Positions 1-33,793 of a stretch of DNA of 56,921 nucleotides are shown here, piece after piece. Source of the stretch: Candidatus Venteria ishoeyi (GTDB lineage: Bacteria; Pseudomonadota; Gammaproteobacteria; Beggiatoales; Beggiatoaceae); the NCBI RefSeq assembly GCF_030378065.1, contig NZ_JAUCGJ010000031.1, positions 1 through 56,921 of the forward strand. Reading direction: 5' to 3'. The notes under the pieces were generated by a model, which saw nothing but the letters and a program-made list of their open reading frames with translations, ran no database searches and was not told where the DNA came from. A program made the position numbers and the translations under genes. Position 1 is the first letter of the stretch. Every line of letters begins with the position of its first letter.

Positions 1-127
1 CAGGATTTTTATTCATTTTCAAGGCGTGAAAACAGGCGCATAGCCAGCTATGTAACTGTTTTCGGAACGCAGAAAATGGAGAAAAAGACCAGCCAAGTTG
101 CTGAAGTTATAAAATTCTCGCTCCTAA
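1..127 (-). repeat. 164-bp palindromic MITE-like element, copy A (cut by window edge)
   Basis: This is the distal part of the dispersed element found complete at 6581-6744, 9047-9210, 13831-13994 and 23212-23375. It has the central GTGAAAACAG / CTGTTTTC hairpin and ends at CTCGCTCCTAA (117-127). It lies in the same orientation as the 6581 copy and opposite to those at 9047, 13831 and 23212. The other end lies outside the window. Confidence 0.8.
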
Positions 128-6580: not shown

Positions 6581-6744
6581 TAAGGAGTGAGGATAAAATA
6601 AATACAGGAACTGGGCACAGGATTTTTATTCATTTTCAAGGCGTGAAAACAGGCGCATAGCAAGCTATGTAACTGTTTTCGGAACGCAGAAAATGGAGAA
6701 AAAGACCAGCCAAGTTGCTGAAGTTATAAAATTCTCGCTCCTAA
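6581..6744 (-). repeat. 164-bp palindromic MITE-like element, copy B
   Basis: This is a complete copy running from TAAGGAGTGAG to CTCGCTCCTAA. It lies 12 bases upstream of the histidine kinase start and just before the region feeding the first TonB receptor gene. The whole 164 bp is an imperfect palindrome centred on the GCAA tetranucleotide of CATAGCAAGCTATG. TAA occurs in direct orientation at both ends, consistent with either a target duplication or part of the element. Confidence 0.85.
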
Positions 6745-9046: not shown

Positions 9047-9210
9047 TTAGGAGTGAGAATTTTATAACTTCAGAAACTGGGCTGGTTTTTTTCTCCATTT
9101 TCTGCGTTGTGAAAACAGTTACATAGCTTGCTATGTGCCTGTTTTCACGCCTTGAAAATGAATAAAAATCCTGTGCCCAGTTCCTGCACTTATTTCATCT
9201 TCACTCCTTA
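9047..9210 (+). repeat. 164-bp palindromic MITE-like element, copy C
   Basis: This is a complete copy, TTAGGAGTGAG to TCACTCCTTA, in the opposite orientation to copy B. It lies between the two receptor genes, downstream of a promoter-like sequence. The matching region upstream of paralogue 1 has no insertion at this point, so the element appears to have entered after the duplication. Confidence 0.88.
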
Positions 9211-13431: not shown

Positions 13432-13830
13432 ATTTTGCATACGACTTTGAAGGACGGGAATACAGTGTGTTGTAACCTCTTGTTCCACCTCGTTCCCAAG
13501 TTCTACTTGGGAATGCCTACCTCGCAAGCTCCGCTTGACCAGTACTGGAAACAGGGCTTCCAATGCCTATGCTCCCAACAAAGACACTGAAGAACAAGGT
13601 GTAACTTTCTGTACTCAGGGGGACTCACTGCGCATAGAGTGAATAACTAAACAACCACCCGCTAAAAGACGGGGGGGGTTAGAGCGTTTGGCGGCTGAAA
13701 GCCGAGATACAGGGCGGACAAGCCCTGTTGTTTAGCCCCAACGGGGCGCATTAATATAGCCAGGGGTAACACCCCTGGAATTGTATCCGTGTCATTCTCT
13801 ACCCTGGGGCGCTGCCCCACTACCATTAAC

Positions 13831-13994
13831 TTAGGAGCGAGAATTTTATAACTTCAGCAACTTGGCTGGTCTTTTTCTCCATTTTCTGCGTTCCGAAAAC
13901 AGTTACATAGCTTGCTATGCGCCTATTTTCGCGCCTTGAAAATGAATAAAAATCCTGCGCCCAGTTTCTGTATTTATTTTATCCTCACTCCTTA
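13831..13994 (+). repeat. 164-bp palindromic MITE-like element, copy D
   Basis: This is a complete copy from TTAGGAGCGAG to CTCACTCCTTA, in the same orientation as copies C and E. It sits amid other palindromes, not in a gene. Length is exactly that of the other full copies. Confidence 0.88.
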
Positions 13995-14010
13995 AGAAAA
14001 TATTCAGCCA

Positions 14011-14198
14011 GCCCCAAAGGGGTATAACATACCAGCCCAGGGCAACGCCCTGGGTGTGTAATGTGATGATACCAGAGCCCTGAAAGGGCGATACATAAAT
14101 GACGCGCCCTCTGATGTATCGCCCTTTCAGGGCTCTAATTCAACAAAATAACCTGCCTGGGGCGCTGCCCCAGGCTATATTAAAATACCCCTTTGGGG
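14011..14198. repeat. Nested inverted repeats with 23-bp perfect arms
   Basis: The core is a 23-bp perfect inverted repeat: 14074-14096 begins AGAGCCCTGAAAGGGCG and 14114-14136 is its exact complement, separated by 17 bases. It is flanked by hairpins CCCAGGGC/GCCCTGGG (14036-14054) and CCTGGGGC/GCCCCAGG (14156-14173). The outer pair is GCCCCAAAGGGG (14011-14022) and CCCCTTTGGGG (about 14188-14198). The whole block is roughly symmetrical. Confidence 0.75.
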
Positions 14199-14276
14199 TG
14201 TTAGCGCTAAAACCCATATTTTAAGTTTTACCGTTAAACATTAGAGATAAATCTGTTCGCCTGAAAGGCGAAGGTT

Positions 14277-19588: not shown

Positions 19589-21223
19589 TCATTGAACCGG
19601 CGGCAGTCCCAGTTCTTTAAGAAATGCATTGTGTGTTTCAGCGGCTTTTGTTACGCGCTTTTCTATCGCTTTCAACTCAGTGTTCACTAATTGCAAATCA
19701 ACTTTCGGCTCAGGTTTGGCAGTGCTGACGTAGCGCGAAATATTGAGATTGTAATCATTCTTCTCAATTTCTTCCATCGAGACGCGACGAGAATAACGCA
19801 CGGCTTCTTTGCGAAACTGATAAGTATCAACGATTCTTTCAATATCCCCCATCCCGCCGTCCGGCATTTCCTGCGTGGTTCGGAGACGATTTTGCCGTTT
19901 GCCCTTCTCAAAGTGCTCACTGGCATTGATGAACAGCACATCATCCGGCTTCTTGCAGCGTTTCAACACCAGAATGCAAACCGGGATGCCGGTGGAAAAA
20001 AACAGATTAGCGGGCAGGCCGATCACGGTGTCGATATGACCGTCTTGTAATAACTTGGTGCGGATGCGGGCTTCCGCGCCACCTCGGAACAACACGCCGT
20101 GGGGCAGAATAATCGCCATTACGCCGCTGTCACTCAAAAAATGAAAGCCGTGCAGCAGAAAAGCAAAATCGGCAGCGGATTTGGGAGCGAGACCATGATT
20201 TTTGAAACGGAAATCTTCGCCCAGCGTTGCCGACGGCTGCCAGCGGTAACTGAAAGGCGGATTGGCGACCACAGCATCAAATTGCAGCTTCTTCGCCGGG
20301 TTCATCTCATTGAGTATATCCCAGTCGTTATGCAGCGAGTCGCCGTGATGAATCTCGAACTCGGTATCTTTCATCCCGTGCAGCAGCATATTCATGCGCG
20401 CCAGGTTATAGGTGGTGATATTTTTTTCCTGCCCGTAAATCTTGCCAATACCGTGAGGGCCGATTTGCTTACGCACATTCAACAGCAAGGAGCCGGAACC
20501 ACAGGCAAAATCGAATACCTTATTCAGTTTTTGTTTTGCGCCAGTCTTTGGCTCCTGGCTGTCCAGGGTGACGATGTTGGACAAAATGGTGGAAATTTGC
20601 TGCGGGGTATAGAACTCACCCGCCTTTTTACCGGAACCTGCGGCAAATTGACCAATCAGGTATTCATAAGCATCGCCAAGGATGTCGGTGTTGGTGCTGA
20701 AGCGGGCAATGCCATCGGCAATTTTTTTAATAATGCTACACAGTTTATCGTTGCGGACTTTCTGCGTCTTTCCCAACTTTTCCGAGTACAAGTTGATTTC
20801 AGAGAACAGACCTTGAAAGCTGCTGCCAAAGGAGCGTTCTTCAATGTACTTAAAGCCGTTATCAAGATTTATCAGCAAATCCGGGTGCTGGGTGCGCGCC
20901 ATCTCATGAATGCTGCTCCACAGATATGGCGGCTCGATGACATAATGCACCTTGAGGCGCATTTGCTTCTCGAAGTCGCTGACATCCTCTGCATTTTCTT
21001 GATACCAGATTGCCAGCGGTGCGCGTTTGCCGTCCTCTTCCGGTGCGGGATAATCCCGCCCCAGCTCCTTCCGCGCCGCCGTTTCGTAGTTATCGGAGAG
21101 ATAACGCAAAAACAGGAACGACAGCATATAATCGCGGAAATCATCGGCATTCATCGCGCCGCGTAAATCGTCGGCAATCGCCCAGAGGGTTTTGCCGAGT
21201 TGGTTGAGTTGTTCTTGGGTCAT
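19589..21223 (-). CDS. hsdM: Type I restriction-modification DNA methyltransferase subunit HsdM
   Basis: The 544-residue subunit methylates adenine in the recognition sequence as part of the M2S complex. The N-terminal helical HsdM domain (about 6-140) is followed by N6-adenine methyltransferase motifs: DFACGSGS (238-245) for SAM and NPPF (321-324) for catalysis. GEFYTP at 202-207 is the usual pre-motif. It is the last gene of the minus-strand cassette, 261 bases after hsdS. The spacer shows no gene but contains a CGCAGAAATACGCAGAA-like repeat. The spacer may hold its own promoter. Confidence 0.95.
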   Translation of the reverse strand: MTQEQLNQLGKTLWAIADDLRGAMNADDFRDYMLSFLFLRYLSDNYETAARKELGRDYPAPEEDGKRAPLAIWYQENAEDVSDFEKQMRLKVHYVIEPPYLWSSIHEMARTQHPDLLINLDNGFKYIEERSFGSSFQGLFSEINLYSEKLGKTQKVRNDKLCSIIKKIADGIARFSTNTDILGDAYEYLIGQFAAGSGKKAGEFYTPQQISTILSNIVTLDSQEPKTGAKQKLNKVFDFACGSGSLLLNVRKQIGPHGIGKIYGQEKNITTYNLARMNMLLHGMKDTEFEIHHGDSLHNDWDILNEMNPAKKLQFDAVVANPPFSYRWQPSATLGEDFRFKNHGLAPKSAADFAFLLHGFHFLSDSGVMAIILPHGVLFRGGAEARIRTKLLQDGHIDTVIGLPANLFFSTGIPVCILVLKRCKKPDDVLFINASEHFEKGKRQNRLRTTQEMPDGGMGDIERIVDTYQFRKEAVRYSRRVSMEEIEKNDYNLNISRYVSTAKPEPKVDLQLVNTELKAIEKRVTKAAETHNAFLKELGLPPVQ

Positions 21224-21484
21224 GGCGTGTGTTCCGTTTCAGCGTTTACAGTGGTTTTATCATTTAGATCGGTAGGTTGGGCTGAGGTACAAAGTCCAAT
21301 ATTTCAGGGATGTGTTGATGTTGGGCTGCCTTCGTCAGCGCCAAGCTACAGGCCAATTTACCACGTTGTATCATCCTTTCAGTGTTTTTTTGCCGCAGAA
21401 GTCGCACAATAACGCAGAAAAAGAAGCGGTTGCGATGAACGGAATCTTCTGCGTATTTCTGCGTTTTCAGCGGCAATAAATTAT

Positions 21485-22786
21485 TCACCCATTTGCCTCC
21501 GGGGTGGGGAATAGCTGCTGCATCAGGCCTTTTTTGTGGGTTTTGAGGGTATCGATTTTTTCAGCCTGGGCGGTAATCAGCGCATCGAGGGAGGTGAGGC
21601 AATTGGCTATTTTTTGTTGTTCGAGACCACATGGAAACTTAATAGGGAGTTGGTGCAGAACTTTTCCTTGAATACCTTGCACAGTACTACCAATTGCCTT
21701 TGCCCTTAAAAGTCCTTGGAATTCACCTCCAAGCATGTAATATTTAAGATAATCGTTGCTTATGAAATCTCTACTCCTAAACTTGATAACTCGTTGTGCC
21801 AACGCAATATATTCTCTGTCGATCTGGGCTATATTTCCTAAAGGGGCTTCAGTAGTAATAAGCACATCACCTTTTTCCGGTTTTCCTTTTTTCATTACAT
21901 TTTCATAATCGTTAGGTGATACATATTCCTTTGAAATATCATAGTCTATATAACCGTGCTTAATATTTTTTGCAGTCACCAAAAATATTCCATGTTCACA
22001 TTTGGCTGGACTTCTACCTCTATAATCAACATATGTTGTTAATTCGTTTAGAGCCTTCTCATCCCACTCCCTCTGATCCCAAAACTCAGGAAAGCGGAGT
22101 TTGGGCAGGGTTTCGCCTTCGGCGGGGAAGAGTTGCTGCATCAGGCCTTTTTTATGGGTCTTGAGGGTGTCGAGTTTTTGGGTTTGGGCGGTGATCAGTT
22201 CGTCAATGGCGGTGAGGCAATCGGCGATTTTTTGTTGTTCTCGCGAAGTAGTTGGCAAAACCACTATTACCTGCTTTAGGTCCGTCTTATTTATTTTCGG
22301 ATGTGCTCCGCCGCCAATTGCTTTAGCAATGCTATCTTGTCCATTTTCACTATCTAAAAGGTAGTAAATATAATTGCTACTCACATTTGTTTTAAACTTA
22401 ATCATTATCATATTGGGAGCTAATGTTGCTGGCTTATCTACCATCGGCATTTGCCATACCTCTCCAACATTTGCGCCAATATTCGCTATTAAAAGTTCAC
22501 CACCATGAAGAGCTGACTTTTTCAAAAAGTCATAGCTAGATTGAACAACATATTTTTGATCTTTGTGACCAAGACCTGCTCTTAGGTCACTAAGTCTGAT
22601 GTAGTAAGCAAATTCATTTGTGTTGAGAATAACAACATTTTCCCTTAAGGATTGAAAACTTCCATTTGCAACGTAGTCGGTTACTATTGAAGCTACATCA
22701 TTTATCTTGGCAAATTTCCATTCCTTATTTCCAAACTCAGGAAACCTTAACTCCGGCACCAAGCCCTTTTTCTCTGGTTTATTCAT
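21485..22786 (-). CDS. hsdS: Type I restriction-modification specificity subunit HsdS
   Basis: The 433-residue subunit sets the bipartite DNA target. It has two half-repeats, each a target recognition domain opening with LRFPEF and ending in a helical spacer with the shared phrase DTLKTHKKGLMQQLFP. The spacer pair is nearly identical at the DNA level (about 21505-21560 and 22110-22170), so domain exchange by recombination is plausible. The start at 22786 (MNKPEKKG) is preferred over a longer in-frame version. It overlaps the stop of the upstream DUF1016 remnant by 8 bases (ATGAATAA), which suggests translational coupling. Target specificity cannot be read from the sequence. Confidence 0.93.
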   Translation of the reverse strand: MNKPEKKGLVPELRFPEFGNKEWKFAKINDVASIVTDYVANGSFQSLRENVVILNTNEFAYYIRLSDLRAGLGHKDQKYVVQSSYDFLKKSALHGGELLIANIGANVGEVWQMPMVDKPATLAPNMIMIKFKTNVSSNYIYYLLDSENGQDSIAKAIGGGAHPKINKTDLKQVIVVLPTTSREQQKIADCLTAIDELITAQTQKLDTLKTHKKGLMQQLFPAEGETLPKLRFPEFWDQREWDEKALNELTTYVDYRGRSPAKCEHGIFLVTAKNIKHGYIDYDISKEYVSPNDYENVMKKGKPEKGDVLITTEAPLGNIAQIDREYIALAQRVIKFRSRDFISNDYLKYYMLGGEFQGLLRAKAIGSTVQGIQGKVLHQLPIKFPCGLEQQKIANCLTSLDALITAQAEKIDTLKTHKKGLMQQLFPTPEANG

Positions 22787-22913
22787 CGCTCTTCTCCAGT
22801 TCCTGCGCAAGCAGCTCATGCAGTTTGGCCTGCAATAGTTTTTTGTCCGGTAGTTGTAATTGATACTCGGCAATCAAAGTTGGCGAGAAGTTACGGGACA
22901 GGGTGTATTCCAT
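22779..22913 (-). pseudogene. C-terminal remnant of a DUF1016 (YhcG-like) gene
   Basis: The 44-codon open frame begins MEYTLSRNFSPTLIAEYQL and continues LPDKKLLQAKLHE. This matches my recollection of the C-terminus of DUF1016 / YhcG-type PD-(D/E)XK nuclease-fold proteins, which often accompany type I restriction genes. The matching N-terminus is at 23376-23556; the middle of the gene is gone. The frame has its own ATG with GGGG upstream and overlaps hsdS by 8 bases, so it might still be translated and help start hsdS. The call rests on remembered family motifs. Confidence 0.65.
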
Positions 22914-22931
22914 TTTTCCCCGTCATAATGA

Positions 22932-23114
22932 TTATAAGCTCTCCATAGAGTTATCTAACGCTAAACCCTCAATCCAGTTAAAATCTTTGTCAACAGAGGA
23001 ATCATGAACATGGCTCTTTTGTTCTAAATAAAGCGTGTAATTAAGCAGTTCGCGTTGCAAGACCAATGGCAGGCTGGCGGCGTGTTGTTGTAGTTGTTCC
23101 AAAATAGCATTCAT
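22932..23114 (-). CDS. Small DUF2281/VapB-like protein
   Basis: The 60-residue protein begins MNAILEQLQQHAASLPLVLQ, with the pattern LPxxLxxELLNYTLYLEQK. This resembles DUF2281-type small proteins, often antitoxin partners of PIN toxins. A good ribosome binding site (AAAGGAG) precedes the ATG. No toxin gene is adjacent. It occupies the gap between the two DUF1016 remnants, so it probably arrived when that gene was broken. Confidence 0.6.
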   Translation of the reverse strand: MNAILEQLQQHAASLPLVLQRELLNYTLYLEQKSHVHDSSVDKDFNWIEGLALDNSMESL

Positions 23115-23211
23115 TCCGATGCTCCTTTTTTACGCTTGGTTTGATAAAGGTTTACCTGGTAAGTTTTAGCGTCTGATACAGTTATTACAAATTTTGCAAC
23201 AATAGTTGTCT

Positions 23212-23375
23212 TTAGGAGTGAGAATTTTATAACTTCAGCAACCTGGCTGGTCTTTTCCTCCATTTTCTGCGTTGTGAAAACAGTTACATAGCTTGCTATG
23301 CGCCTGTTTTCACGCCTTGAAAATGAATAAAAATCCTGTGCCCAGTTTCTGCATTTATTTCATCCTCACTCCTTA
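23212..23375 (+). repeat. 164-bp palindromic MITE-like element, copy E
   Basis: This is a complete copy with ends TTAGGAGTGAG and CTCACTCCTTA. It lies at the point where the DUF1016 N-terminal reading frame stops matching its family. Its two halves pair over 80 bases with no need for gaps around a TTGC centre. Confidence 0.9.
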
Positions 23376-23556
23376 TAAGACATGGTGTATGGCTGGGTGT
23401 AATTCTCTCACCACTGGTGAGAGTTTTTCCAACCGACCAGTAGAGGTCAATCAGCGTAGTATTCACCTGTTGCAGCGCTTTTTGTCGTGCCTGTTGTATC
23501 TGTTTTAACAAGTCTTCAAATACTTTTTGCTGTCCTGTTGTCAGTGGTTCACTCAT
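23376..23556 (-). pseudogene. N-terminal remnant of a DUF1016 (YhcG-like) gene
   Basis: The frame starts MSEPLTTGQQKVFEDLLKQI and continues with an AVN-like helix and IDLYWSVGKTL. This is the usual N-terminus of DUF1016 proteins (helical region ending LYWxIG). The open frame runs on into repeat copy E and stops at 23296, giving a false tail. The ATG overlaps the hsdR stop by 8 bases (ATGAGTGA), and hsdR's last codons supply GGAGG as its binding site. The missing middle and displaced C-terminus show that the gene is dead. Confidence 0.75.
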
Positions 23557-26500
23557 AAACCTCCAACCCCGAAATCTCGCGCCCGTCTGCGAGCTTTTGC
23601 AAATAGGGCAGGAGGTCTTCCATCAGTGCCAGCTCGACCACGCGCCGCGCTTTCCAGCCTAATTCCAGGGGGCTGAGCAGGTCGGTAAGCTGTTCGGCAT
23701 CGAAAATCATGCGCGCTATAATGCCATCAACAAAGCTTTGCAGCGCATCGCCTGACAGTTCGTGTTTGGCGGCGATTCCAGCCAGGTCGGCGGCGGCCTT
23801 TTGGGTTTTGTAGTGCTGGTAGCCTTCGCGGATTTCACTTGTTTGCAGGGGTCTGTCGGTTGGCAGGCTGTAGATGTAGGGAATGATGTCATCACGTTCT
23901 GCTACCAGATTGGCATCGGCGCTGATCATGTCAACCACTTGCTGCCGTGACATTTTGGTCTTGCCGGTTGATTCAGTGGATTGGGCGAGCAGACCCATAA
24001 TGTAGTCGTAATCAATGATACTGGAGGCGAACAGCACCAGGTCAAATTCCAGTTGCTCTACGGCCTCGTTTGTCTCCTTACCCTTGCCCTGTTTGCGCTT
24101 GAGTTCCAGCGCGGTGTCAAGATAGGCGGCTTTGAAGCTGCGCAATGTGTCGCTGGGCAGTTGCTGCTCAATGCTGTCTTGGCTCTGTTTGTCGAGGTCG
24201 GTGTATTGTTCCAGTTGAGTCTTGAGCCTTTGCACCGCCTTGAAGTGGTTGATAAATTCCGCCTTGGCGTTATCCCCCTTGAGGTTGTGCACTTGCGAAG
24301 GTTCGCATTCCAGCCCTTTGGATTGCATGAAGCTTTCCAACTGCCCCACGGCTTCCTGGTACTTTGCCACCACTTCGGGCGCGGGATCAACCAGCCAGAC
24401 TTCCCGCGCCTTGTCTTTGGCTGCGCCGGAGAAGAGTTCAATGGCGCTATCCACTTCGTTCTCCTGATAGCGGAAGTCGAGAATATTACCCCAGGGCTTG
24501 CTGTCGTTGAGCACGCGGTTGGTGCGCGAGAAGGCTTGAATCAGGCCGTGGTGTTTGAGGTTTTTGTCCACGTACAGGGTGTTGAGATATTTGGAGTCGA
24601 AGCCGGTGAGCAGCATGTCCACCACGATGGTGATGTCAATTTTTTTACGGCGGGGATAGTCGGCATTGCTGTATTGCTGCTTCTTGATGCGCTGTTGCAC
24701 GTTCTGATAATACAGGTCGAATTCATTAATGCTGTGATTGCTGTCATATTGCGCGTTGTAGTCGGCAATAATGGTCTTGAGTGCGGCTTTCTTTTGTTCC
24801 GGTGCTTGCTTGTTGTCTTCTTTTTCCTGGGTCAGGTCTTCCTGTAGCTGCTGCACGTCCTTGTTGCCTTCTGCCGGTGGCGAGAACACGCAGGCGATAT
24901 GCAGCGGCTGGAAGTTTTTATCTGCGGCCTGTTTATCGGCCTGGAGGGTTTGGAACCGGGTGTAATATTCAATGGCGTGGTTGATGGAAGCGGTGGCGAG
25001 GATGGCGTTAAAGCGGCGCTGGTCGGTGGCGCTGTCGTGCTTTTCCAGTATGGCCTCAATGACGGCTTCCGGTGGTGGTGTTTGCCCATTTTGCGGTTTG
25101 TTATCACTATCCTTACCAAAATAATCAATGTGAAAACTCAGCACGTTTTTATCATCAATGGCGTGGGTGATGGTGTAGGCGTGCAATTCTTTTTCAAAGA
25201 TTTTTTCAGTGGTGAGGTCATAGGCAACCGCTTTTCCGTCTTGCGCCGCCTCAGCGGTGTTGTCAACCCGCACATAACTGGCGTTTTCAGGAAAAATCGG
25301 TGTGCCGGTAAAACCAAACAGTTGCGCTTTGGGAAAAAAGGCTTTTATCGCCTTGTGGTTTTCGCCGAACTGGGAGCGGTGGCATTCGTCAAAAATAAAC
25401 ACCACGCGCTTGTCGCGCAGCGGTTCAAGGCGTTGCTTGTAGGTTTGTTTGCCTTCTTTTTGTTTCGCCTTGTTGCGCTTGCTGTTCTCATCCAGCGCCA
25501 AACCCAGTTTCTGGATGGTGGTGACGATTACCTTGTCGGCGTAGTCGTCGGACACCATGCGCCGTACCAGGGTTTCGGTGTTGGTGTTGTGCTCGACGCA
25601 GCCTGACTGGAATTTATTAAATTCTTCGCGGGTCTGGCGGTCGAGGTCTTTGCGATCCACCACGAACAGGCATTTTTCAATATCGGGGTTGTCTTTGAGC
25701 AGGGTTGAGGTCTTGAATGAGGTCAGGGTCTTGCCACTGCCGGTGGTGTGCCAGATATAGCCGTTGCCGCGATTCTGGTGAATGCATTCGATAATCGCCT
25801 TGACTGCGTAAATCTGGTAAGGGCGCATGATGAGGATTTTTTGCTCACTTTGCACCAGCACCATGTAGCGGCTGATTAACTGCCCCAGGCTGCACTTTTC
25901 CAGGAAGTCATCGGCAAATTCTTGCAGGTGGGTGATTTTGTTATTCTCTTTATCGGCGTGCTGGTAAATGGGCAAAAAGCGTTCTTTGGCGTTAAAACTG
26001 AAATGCTGGTCGCGGTTGTTGGCAAAATAGCGGGTGTCGGTTTCGTTACTAACGATGAACAACTGCATGAAACAGAGCAGGGTATTGCCGTAGCCGTTGC
26101 CGGGGTCGTTTTTGTAATCGACAATCTGCTCCATAGCGCGGCGGGGGCTGATTTGCAGGGTTTTTAGCTCGATTTGCACCAGTGGCAGGCCATTGATGAG
26201 CAAAATCACGTCATAACGGTGAAAACTGTTATCGGTGTTGATGCGAAGCTGGTTAATGACTTCAAAATCATTTTTACACCAGTCACGGAGATTAACCAGC
26301 ATGTATTCCAGCGGGGTGCTATCTTCGCGGGTGAATTTGCCTTTCTCGCGCAGTACCTGGGAGGCGGTGAAGACATCGGCGCTCACGATTTCATCACGCA
26401 GGCGGGTGAACTCGGCATCCGTTAGATTGACCCGGTTCAGCGCCTCGAATTTCTGGCGGAAGTTTTGCTCAAGTGTGGCCTTGTCGCGGATGTCGTCGCG

Positions 26501-26569
26501 GTAGGTGTATTTGAGCGCCCTGAGCCTGTTGATTAATTGTTGCTCAATCTCTTTTTCTTTTAACATCAT
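23549..26569 (-). CDS. hsdR: Type I restriction endonuclease subunit HsdR
   Basis: The 1006-residue motor and nuclease subunit cleaves unmodified DNA after ATP-driven translocation. The N-terminal nuclease domain has a PD-(D/E)XK pattern with Asp120 and the pair Glu134/Lys136 (VQIELK). The helicase has Walker A HTTGSGKT (274-281), DECH box (394-397) and motif III GFTGTPIF. Later motifs include DMLLTGFDSKYLNTLYVD and the QAFSRTNR motif VI. A helical C-terminal region would contact HsdM/HsdS. The sequence is intact. It appears to be the first gene of the cassette; no strong ribosome binding site precedes the paired ATGs at the start. Confidence 0.95.
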   Translation of the reverse strand: MMLKEKEIEQQLINRLRALKYTYRDDIRDKATLEQNFRQKFEALNRVNLTDAEFTRLRDEIVSADVFTASQVLREKGKFTREDSTPLEYMLVNLRDWCKNDFEVINQLRINTDNSFHRYDVILLINGLPLVQIELKTLQISPRRAMEQIVDYKNDPGNGYGNTLLCFMQLFIVSNETDTRYFANNRDQHFSFNAKERFLPIYQHADKENNKITHLQEFADDFLEKCSLGQLISRYMVLVQSEQKILIMRPYQIYAVKAIIECIHQNRGNGYIWHTTGSGKTLTSFKTSTLLKDNPDIEKCLFVVDRKDLDRQTREEFNKFQSGCVEHNTNTETLVRRMVSDDYADKVIVTTIQKLGLALDENSKRNKAKQKEGKQTYKQRLEPLRDKRVVFIFDECHRSQFGENHKAIKAFFPKAQLFGFTGTPIFPENASYVRVDNTAEAAQDGKAVAYDLTTEKIFEKELHAYTITHAIDDKNVLSFHIDYFGKDSDNKPQNGQTPPPEAVIEAILEKHDSATDQRRFNAILATASINHAIEYYTRFQTLQADKQAADKNFQPLHIACVFSPPAEGNKDVQQLQEDLTQEKEDNKQAPEQKKAALKTIIADYNAQYDSNHSINEFDLYYQNVQQRIKKQQYSNADYPRRKKIDITIVVDMLLTGFDSKYLNTLYVDKNLKHHGLIQAFSRTNRVLNDSKPWGNILDFRYQENEVDSAIELFSGAAKDKAREVWLVDPAPEVVAKYQEAVGQLESFMQSKGLECEPSQVHNLKGDNAKAEFINHFKAVQRLKTQLEQYTDLDKQSQDSIEQQLPSDTLRSFKAAYLDTALELKRKQGKGKETNEAVEQLEFDLVLFASSIIDYDYIMGLLAQSTESTGKTKMSRQQVVDMISADANLVAERDDIIPYIYSLPTDRPLQTSEIREGYQHYKTQKAAADLAGIAAKHELSGDALQSFVDGIIARMIFDAEQLTDLLSPLELGWKARRVVELALMEDLLPYLQKLADGREISGLEVYE

Positions 26570-27739: not shown

Positions 27740-27757
27740 TAAGGAGTGAGCATAAAA
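27740..27757. repeat. Possible solo end of the 164-bp element
   Basis: TAAGGAGTGAG followed by CATAAAA matches the terminal 11 bases of the dispersed element exactly and then diverges. The opposite end is not seen. It sits at the broken end of the Mut7-C remnant. The 200 bases beyond it (to 27952) hold a perfect 9-bp hairpin TTCATCGCT/AGCGATGAA (27854-27874) and CTGAGTTTGA-type short repeats, but no gene. Confidence 0.4.
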
Positions 27758-27952
27758 ACGCAATTTAATCTGAGTTTGACGTAAGACTTTCATGCTTGAA
27801 ACATCCAAATCCAGCACAAACAACCAAAAACTTAGCGTGAGATTTTGGCGACTTTCATCGCTATAAGCGATGAATGAAGCTTAAATCGAATTCAGGTTAA
27901 TTTAATCTGAATCATTGTTATAGAATATTTTGTGTAGGTTTTTTGGTCAAAA

Positions 27953-33680: not shown

Positions 33681-33793
33681 ATTTCTGTATTATGAAAACA
33701 GTTACATAGCTTGCTATGCGCCTGTTTTCATGCCTTGAAAATGAACAAAAATCCTGTGCTCGGTTTCGGTTCTTATTTCATCCTCGTTCCTAA
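33681..33793 (+). repeat. Degenerate 164-bp element, copy F (left arm lost)
   Basis: The central hairpin (TGAAAACAG, then ACATAGCTTGCTATG, then CTGTTTTCA) and the right arm to TTCCTAA are recognisable, with more mismatches than in other copies. About 50 bases of the left arm are missing. It lies 22 bases upstream of rsmG. Confidence 0.75.

Follow-up and report, generated by a model that had tools for sequence, protein, structure and literature searches.

A 164-bp palindromic MITE of Candidatus Venteria ishoeyi contains a hairpin core which recurs across phyla and is probably related to ERIC

The 56,921 nt of Candidatus Venteria ishoeyi DNA analysed here (the window, meaning this whole stretch) contain several copies of a 164-bp repeat, which raises the question of what kind of element this is, what has spread it, and which part of its long palindrome is kept, and in what form. 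The four complete copies listed in a preliminary description of the window are present as given there, and the copy cut by the window edge, the degraded copy and the solo end are likewise all real (Table 1). The complete copies are each 164 bp in length with pairwise identities of 90.9-97.6%, and the copy at 6581, of which the plus strand (6581-6744) defines what we call the R strand, lies in the opposite orientation to the other three, with TAA...TAA as its flanks. When searched with up to one mismatch, TAAGGAGTGAGNATAAAA is found at four places in the window, three of which are ends of full copies and the fourth is the solo end at 27740, with 0.00 places expected by chance. The suggestion that the whole element forms one hairpin holds up as well, as the RNA fold of copy 6581 has a free energy of -66.9 kcal/mol versus -30.95 +/- 3.58 kcal/mol for shuffled sequences (z -10). 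The type I restriction-modification genes hsdM, hsdS-like and hsdR are located at 19589-26569 in the window, and the copy starting at 23212 sits in the spacer between the hsdS-like and hsdR genes.

Table 1. Copies of the 164-bp repeat in the window and positions of the loop motifs in the copy at 6581
Feature	Position	Strand	Details
Cut copy	1..127	+	R (folding) strand +; 99% identity to copy 6581 over 127 bp; ERIC-model match 4-86 +
Complete copy	6581..6744	+	R strand +; ERIC-model match 6621-6703 +
Target site duplication TAA of copy 6581	6581-6583, 6742-6744		Element proper 6584-6741
Loop A 5' motif GGATTT (within CAGGATTTTT)	6620..6625	+	Sequence; cross-phylum alignment
Loop B 5' motif AAGGCG	6638..6643	+	Sequence
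Loop C 5' motif CAGGCGCATAG	6650..6660	+	Sequence; motif scan 32/32 at 6650
Loop C 3' motif TAACTG	6670..6675	+	Sequence
Loop B 3' motif AACGCA	6683..6688	+	Sequence
Loop A 3' motif AAAGAC	6701..6706	+	Sequence
Complete copy	9047..9210	-	R strand -; target site duplication TTA; best ERIC-model match 9078-9181 -, E 0.001
Complete copy	13831..13994	-	R strand -; target site duplication TTA; ERIC-model match 13853-13974 -
Complete copy	23212..23375	-	R strand -; target site duplication TTA; ERIC-model match 23250-23337 -
Solo terminal repeat TAAGGAGTGAGCATAAAA	27740..27757	+	Unrelated interior; 0.00 expected by chance
Degraded copy	33681..33793	-	About one third missing at one end; 88% identity over 110 bp

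The preliminary description had deduced a very high copy number, and the search of the whole genome (4,408,079 bases in 115 contigs) bears this out: the 25 left bases of the repeat, with up to three mismatches, match at 308 places (158+150), where a control pattern gave 0 matches. These ~308 copies account for approximately 1.1% of the genome; a BLAST search of the repeat against its own genome gave at least 48 matches, the best 40 of 338 candidates having been scored. Further anatomy was read from 82 full copies, which are a non-random sample as 40 stretches had been picked via a TTA-containing pattern. The constant length of 164 bp proposed earlier applies to the four window copies, but genome-wide to only 63 of the 82 (16 are of 176 bp, with one each of 163, 165 and 121 bp); similarly, the shared ends were confirmed in that these terminal inverted repeats read GGAG[TC]GAG in 75/82 copies, although the ends do vary among copies. 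Identical 3-bp flanks were present in 78/82 full copies (TTA in 62, TAA in 11, ATA in 4 and TGA in 1), in agreement with the earlier view of TTA/TAA as a target duplication, with the share of TTA inflated because of the pattern used for the 40 stretches. Since copies with ATA/ATA and TGA/TGA also exist, the target site duplication comprises 3 bp and the element itself measures 158 bp (GGAGYGAG...CTCRCTCC), usually inserted at C|TTA. This leaves room for 52 codons at most, the 176-bp variant (flanks included) being the longest of the full copies. The interior contains CAGGAT (loop A) in 80/82 copies, TCAAGGCG (5' side of loop B) in 75/82, ATGTAACT (3' side of loop C) in 76/82, AACGCAGAA (3' side of loop B) in 66/82 and AAGACCAG (3' side of loop A) in 76/82.

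Traces of movement are present as well. Contig C67 contains three head-to-tail copies with a single TTA shared between neighbours, and a copy on contig C17 (L048) is nested inside a second dispersed repeat, of which four other members have no interruption at the insertion point; they thus provide the paralogous empty site, where three carry TTA once and the fourth (L067) has CTA. The 63 copies of 164 bp have a median identity of 98.8% to their nearest neighbour (maximum 100%), therefore activity is recent, whether present or past. Open reading frames are avoided by 58/59 own copies tested, many of which sit in tight spacers. The proposal that the 164-bp repeat is a MITE lacking a transposase of its own is supported: it is short, and has terminal inverted repeats, a target site duplication and an empty site. 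No match to either the element or its core was obtained in plasmid, phage and viral-contig collections, from which records close to the source genome may be absent, and the only Rfam families at gathering score in the window, 14 named loci and 8 ERIC-model loci were tRNAs, none overlapping the element. The Rfam family Acido-Lenti-1 was considered and rejected as the identity of the element, as its matches near 13734-14200 are outside the copies and below cut-off; these matches (13734-13778, 14010-14054 and 14156-14200; 24.5-32.9 bits versus a cut-off of 37) flank the copy at 13831. The second dispersed repeat itself has hairpin potential and is found in the window at 1692-1762 and 27832-27902, and elsewhere at L027:2488-2556 and L067:682-764. 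Another copy (L086, contig 55) is split by an IS66-family element (L086:507-2609) encoding a 590-aa PF03050 transposase and flanked by the 8-bp duplication TCTTTTTC.

A longer element with matching ends and a transposase, which would be the expected mover, was searched for and not found in the genome; the nearest candidate is a 110-aa PF01609 fragment at locus L093, the C-terminal side of which is located ~100 bp from TTAGGAGTGAGAAGC, with the one matching end reading TTAGGAGTGAGAA. This adjacency is possibly a coincidence, because the genome holds several hundred such ends. The own genome contains PF01609 at eight places and no PF13586, and no intact insertion sequence with GGAGTGAG ends was found in it. 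Among 42 genomes of the family, 10 had a match to the L093 protein, all distant except for that in the own genome, and there was no match in the genome contig collection. Five of six other host genomes contained PF01609, yet neither inspection of 30 loci nor the end scans gave a complete partner insertion sequence with both matching ends, and the same was true for four solo CTAGTACA ends in two genomes, where the neighbouring open reading frames were judged by eye rather than by profile. In genomes of the same family, 4/28 transposase loci have TTA/TAA duplications with ends GAGCCTGTTCAAAA, GAACCTGTTTAAAG, GAGTCTGTTTAAAG or GAGGGTGTTTTAAAAG, which resemble the GGAACTGT.. and GGGCCTGT.. ends of several element members. 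We take the duplication and ends of the 164-bp repeat to fit IS5-family groups (features of the IS1031/IS427 groups), and this comparison of ends and duplications suggests an IS5-group source for the MITE. The difference from the IS1031/IS427 subgroups is that the own genome offers a PF01609 fragment and no intact GGAGTGAG-ended insertion sequence.

The inner part of the hairpin has a much wider distribution than the complete repeat. A BLAST search of 57 related genomes gave a match in only four, own included; three relatives have the same inner hairpin, whole or partial, and two of them have clearly different ends (GGAACGTGCA and GGCGATT). When a core pattern of 21 fixed bases and a free loop was run over the named GTDB genomes, at least 96 stretches were identified, in Lachnospiraceae and other Clostridia of the Bacillota (including A4 and D16-36, which are not labelled as MAGs), in Methylococcaceae (including M. 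buryatense 5G, Methylomicrobium sp. wino1 and Methylobacter marinus A45), and in Nitrosomonas, Accumulibacter, Mariprofundus, Desulfocapsa/Desulfobulbaceae and Bacteroidales/Bacteroides. Hence the hairpin core recurs across the Pseudomonadota, Zetaproteobacteria and Bacillota, and in the Desulfobacterota and Bacteroidota in MAGs alone; many of the core-bearing records are MAGs, for which mis-binning is possible, and the two loci inspected for the latter phyla (L119 and L188) yielded no pair of terminal repeats. Eighty of the loci (L119-L198) were analysed, 64 of which had 60 bp on either side; a terminal-repeat pair could be delimited in 38 of the 64 but not in the other 26. Equal TTA or TAA flanks were found in 33 of the 38, with a score which slightly favours equal flanks. 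After dropping L145 and L170, 36 elements remained, many of them from the same few genomes and hence not independent, with 32/36 having a length of 154-161 bp. In Methylococcales the same core is also located between TATACTTCGCGCG ends, and Lachnospiraceae-type genomes have a form with CTAGTACA ends. Since the same core occurs between different terminal repeats, it is the core which is conserved, with ends and targets changing. A model of the window family (R1) detected the core in 31/369 genomes sampled from the class, own included, and in 24/200 genomes sampled from the family of a Lachnospiraceae-type genome, centre included. Four Methylococcales loci (L135, L139, L166 and L177) have an extra hairpin of ~46 bp (CCTACATGGATGTAGG...GGAAGC and variants) inserted at one position of the core.

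Both the pairing and the strand of this core appear to have been kept. The consensus structure from 29 cores has 28 pairs, 14 of which have changed at both partners in some sequence; pairing holds in 95.8% of cells, versus 39.5-49.6% after a shift of the partners by 1-3 columns, and the covariation score was reached by 0/500 shuffles. Nine pairs are invariant, of which seven belong to the inner helix; this is due in part to their being fixed in the search pattern, and for that reason the invariance of the 21 pattern-fixed bases is uninformative. The pattern did not include loops A and B or the outer stems. The R strand is predicted to fold better than its complement in 36/36 cross-phylum elements (mean 17.2 kcal/mol) and in 79/79 own copies (mean 15.9 kcal/mol), because A-C mismatches on the complement read G-U on the R strand: the complement has 62 (Firmicutes), 45 (other) and 187 (own) A-C mismatches versus 7, 14 and 10 G-U pairs, respectively. 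In 18 unrelated hairpins, which were taken from the window and from three methylotroph genomes and at 124 bases are shorter than the elements, the strand difference had a mean of 3.2 and a maximum of 11.7 kcal/mol. The R strand, as read by motif, was also the lower in energy in 22/24 elements found by the model instead of the search pattern (exceptions L257 and L361; L360, L362, L364 and L368 lacked coordinates and are left out), a count which was 19/24 when made mechanically, before L250, L365 and L369 were re-assigned by motif. Only L271 goes the opposite way among 11 further motif-bearing stretches. Such one-sided folding would not be expected from binding of double-stranded DNA, and a single-stranded form is its natural reading; taken with the compensatory pairs and the fixed loop motifs, it means that a single-stranded form of the R strand, either RNA or single-stranded DNA, is probably under selection.

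The ERIC sequences, widely used for bacterial fingerprinting (ERIC-PCR), have a centre of CAGGAG-CUUAC-loop-GUAAG-UGACUG, to be compared with CAGGCG-CAUAG-loop-CUAUG-UAACUG in the window element. For this comparison 14 ERIC loci were used, with CAGG and ACTG being part of the ERIC search query, and in each of the first eight the corresponding strand is the better folder. Scoring with six motifs of the window family, which were chosen post hoc after the ERIC alignment, gave 32/32 in the Klebsiella ilvC-ilvY ERIC (L346 and L352, one sequence in two records), and 11/14 loci outscored all of their 150 shuffles, the exceptions being L349, L353 and L356; in a background of ~1.56 Mb (both strands, top two places per strand and piece) six places scored at least 27 and none scored 32. 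With an ERIC-only model (R2), the top five places in the window went to its five best-preserved copies, each matched on the R strand (E 0.001-0.017), followed by a short hairpin of 17.9 bits, with the degraded copy ninth at only 14.5 bits (33682-33739, minus strand). With hand-picked loci, R2 detected 10/12 and 9/10 other members with E values up to 1, some of these below unrelated hairpins. Two unrelated hairpins reached 24.5 and 23.2 bits with R2, on a par with several members; the R2 controls included two recognised non-members (L303 and L308). In the opposite direction, R1 detected ERIC weakly, with E values of 0.0012-0.17 for 6/8 loci and 0.0019-0.25 for 6/6 short loci (some matches covering the centre only), and with ranks of 5 (11.6 bits) and 14 (8.9 bits) in a 72-kb background, and a sequence-only ERIC model (R3) found no window copy as such.

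We regard kinship with ERIC as probable because there are intermediates which mix both anatomies. R2 gave matches in 2/8 genomes searched, and one small-genome gammaproteobacterium (G327) contains seven elements with R2 scores of 46.5-62.9 bits, which have the TATACTC-type ends and loop C of ERIC together with window-like GGATTTTT (6/7), AAGGCG, and AACGCA, AACACA or AACATA. Loci L273 and L269, and with a weaker loop A also L271, have loops A and B of the window type together with a loop C which resembles that of ERIC and lies further outward. Intermediates in rRNA operons likewise connect the window element with ERIC. The 164-bp element is therefore probably a relative of ERIC. A hairpin of ~70 bp with ends TATACCC...GGGTATA and no visible core motifs is present at L308:6187-6253 (in G413, which also contains the M. 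buryatense 5G locus L173), and is possibly another MITE which uses the same mover.

With regard to the form of the R strand, its orientation relative to genes, as called mechanically from open reading frames of at least 80 aa, is without bias: in co-directional spacers it was sense and antisense in 17 and 13 own copies, and in 16 and 16 others. The fold is therefore not kept by hosts retaining one orientation only, and more likely matters for the success of the element itself or for its tolerance in either orientation. Three members of the class with small genomes (L262, L267 and L270) have rRNA operons with motif-bearing stretches in the 16S-23S spacer, some of them between tRNA genes, and L270:2826-2948 is an ERIC-like hairpin with superfamily motifs inside the 23S rRNA match, an apparent intervening sequence. 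We rejected the possibility that these are chance hairpins as they carry the motifs, and for the same reason the three loci cannot serve as negative controls of the ERIC model. In 8/9 rRNA-operon copies (E up to 1) it is the R strand that corresponds to the rRNA sense strand, L262:1251-1345 being antisense, and the two copies from L267 are the weakest by motif. Known 23S rRNA intervening sequences are removed at the RNA level by RNase III, and by analogy insertions in rRNA operons must presumably be handled at the RNA level as well. Small as the sample is, the sense bias is what chiefly favours RNA over single-stranded DNA.

The reading we favour, at a probability of about 0.62, is that of an IS5-mobilised MITE, representing one branch of a superfamily which spans phyla and includes ERIC, with exchanged ends and a functional core of R-strand RNA. 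The repeat would consist of the 158-bp MITE and its 3-bp target duplication, and would depend for its movement on a trans-acting DDE transposase of the IS5 group, an enzyme for which the genome yielded no intact copy. The branches of this presumably old superfamily would share a rod-shaped hairpin with loops A (GGAUU/AAAGAC), B (AAGGCG/AACGCA) and C (GG-G/U-A-C) on one defined strand, with terminal repeats and target duplications differing by lineage, as if swapped with the locally available transposase. We infer both this exchange of terminal repeats between lineages and that RNA of the R strand is the functional form, most likely as an RNA module which is processed and tolerated: cutting of the RNase III type would make insertions in transcribed spacers, even those of rRNA operons, survivable. 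Alternatively or additionally, the R-strand RNA may help the element to multiply.

The same superfamily could also have been selected as a hairpin of single-stranded DNA, for example extruded in replication, which is recognised or serves in joining the ends and for which transcripts are irrelevant. DNA energy parameters favour the R strand in 79/79 own copies and 36/36 others, and as they give the same sign as the RNA parameters, folding alone separates neither form from the other; absence of orientation bias relative to genes also fits with a DNA hairpin. A link to replication was looked for in three methylotroph genomes, with replichores judged from GC skew in 20 sampled 10-kb pieces per genome, and the R strand was on the lagging side for 12/14, 13/20 and 4/10 copies. 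With 29/44 overall and the third genome going the opposite way, this is inconsistent, and we rejected replication-strand bias as an explanation. As the sense strand is favoured in the rRNA operons, and the target duplications indicate ordinary double-strand cut-and-paste, we see selection of a DNA hairpin as unlikely, albeit the most serious of the competing explanations.

A simpler view has an ordinary IS5-derived MITE with a functionless palindrome, cores which reached other phyla by horizontal transfer, and a likeness to ERIC that reflects long hairpins only. The TTA/TAA duplication and IS5-like ends, the failure of the sequence-only ERIC model, the weak detection of ERIC by R1 and the scores of up to 24.5 bits for generic hairpins are in its favour. 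It is nevertheless improbable and already largely contradicted, by the compensatory stem changes between phyla around constant loop motifs, by the one-sided folding, by a core kept while terminal repeats differ, and by the seven high-scoring ERIC-model elements with A and B motifs of the window type. The position of almost all own copies outside open reading frames, often in tight spacers, would also suit a regulatory or mRNA-stability repeat owned by the host, comparable to REP/BIME and spread by host enzymes instead of a transposase. This we regard as very improbable, given the target duplications, terminal inverted repeats, tandem insertion and empty site, the absence of gene-orientation bias, and a length and architecture unlike the 20-40 bp of REPs.

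The RNA-core MITE reading can be extended, more tentatively and at less than even odds, to an ancient family of mobile RNA hairpins in the Pseudomonadota, Desulfobacterota, Bacillota and Bacteroidota, analogous to SINEs and with ERIC as its best-known branch. The core would have been inherited via ever new IS5-group ends, with loops that bind a universal host factor (RNase III, RNA polymerase and the ribosome being candidates), either making insertions harmless or aiding spread. The cross-phylum core with different ends, the folding of one strand and the probable ERIC kinship go beyond the earlier description as a MITE. They suggest that, for at least one large family of MITEs, conservation lies in the inner fold and not in the terminal repeats, and name the loop motifs of the ERIC superfamily as testable parts. 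Placing ERIC in a trans-phylum family with differing ends would also offer a route to its transposase, via those branches with clear IS5-type ends. The mode of movement of ERIC was stated to be unresolved in 2007 (accessible text of PMC2759123), and no later settlement was found. Among the papers listed by the literature searches, with subscription journals mostly outside their reach, none described the 164-bp element or relatives of ERIC outside its known phylum.

Several described repeats resemble the element in part, and are compared here by description from the accessible text of the respective publications. YPAL/RU-2 of Yersinia is palindromic, intergenic and ~168 bp in length, but has duplications of 3-26 bp, no TA ends, and internal inverted repeats (PMC2229807). 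The hupL and dsrA families of Thiomargarita are likewise high-copy MITEs in a Beggiatoaceae genome, one of them with a long hairpin, but have either 10-bp direct repeats, or TATAG ends and a location in a group I intron (PMC4853749). Chunjie of Geobacter uraniireducens is a mostly intergenic MITE with dozens of copies, set apart by its length of 178-235 bp (PMC10969869). ERIC (enterobacterial repetitive intergenic consensus; IRU, RU-1) is described in Enterobacteriaceae and Vibrionaceae (PMC10969869). It shares with the 164-bp element the imperfect palindrome from end to end, the intergenic position, high copy number and non-autonomous nature, and in addition the loop A, B and C motifs in the same order (11/14 loci) and the same strand preference (the eight folded loci); an effect of RNase E which depends on orientation is described for ERIC in the accessible texts of PMC10969869, PMC2759123, PMC2229807, PMC2267715 and PMC4853749 taken jointly. 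ERIC loop C is located ~11 bp further out than that of the window element and reads GGAG/UGA. As ERIC is 127 bp in length with TA ends and a TA duplication (accessible text of PMC2759123 and PMC2229807), in contrast to the 158 bp, GGAGTGAG ends and TTA/TAA duplication found here, the element is best seen as a relative of ERIC, and not as an ERIC itself.
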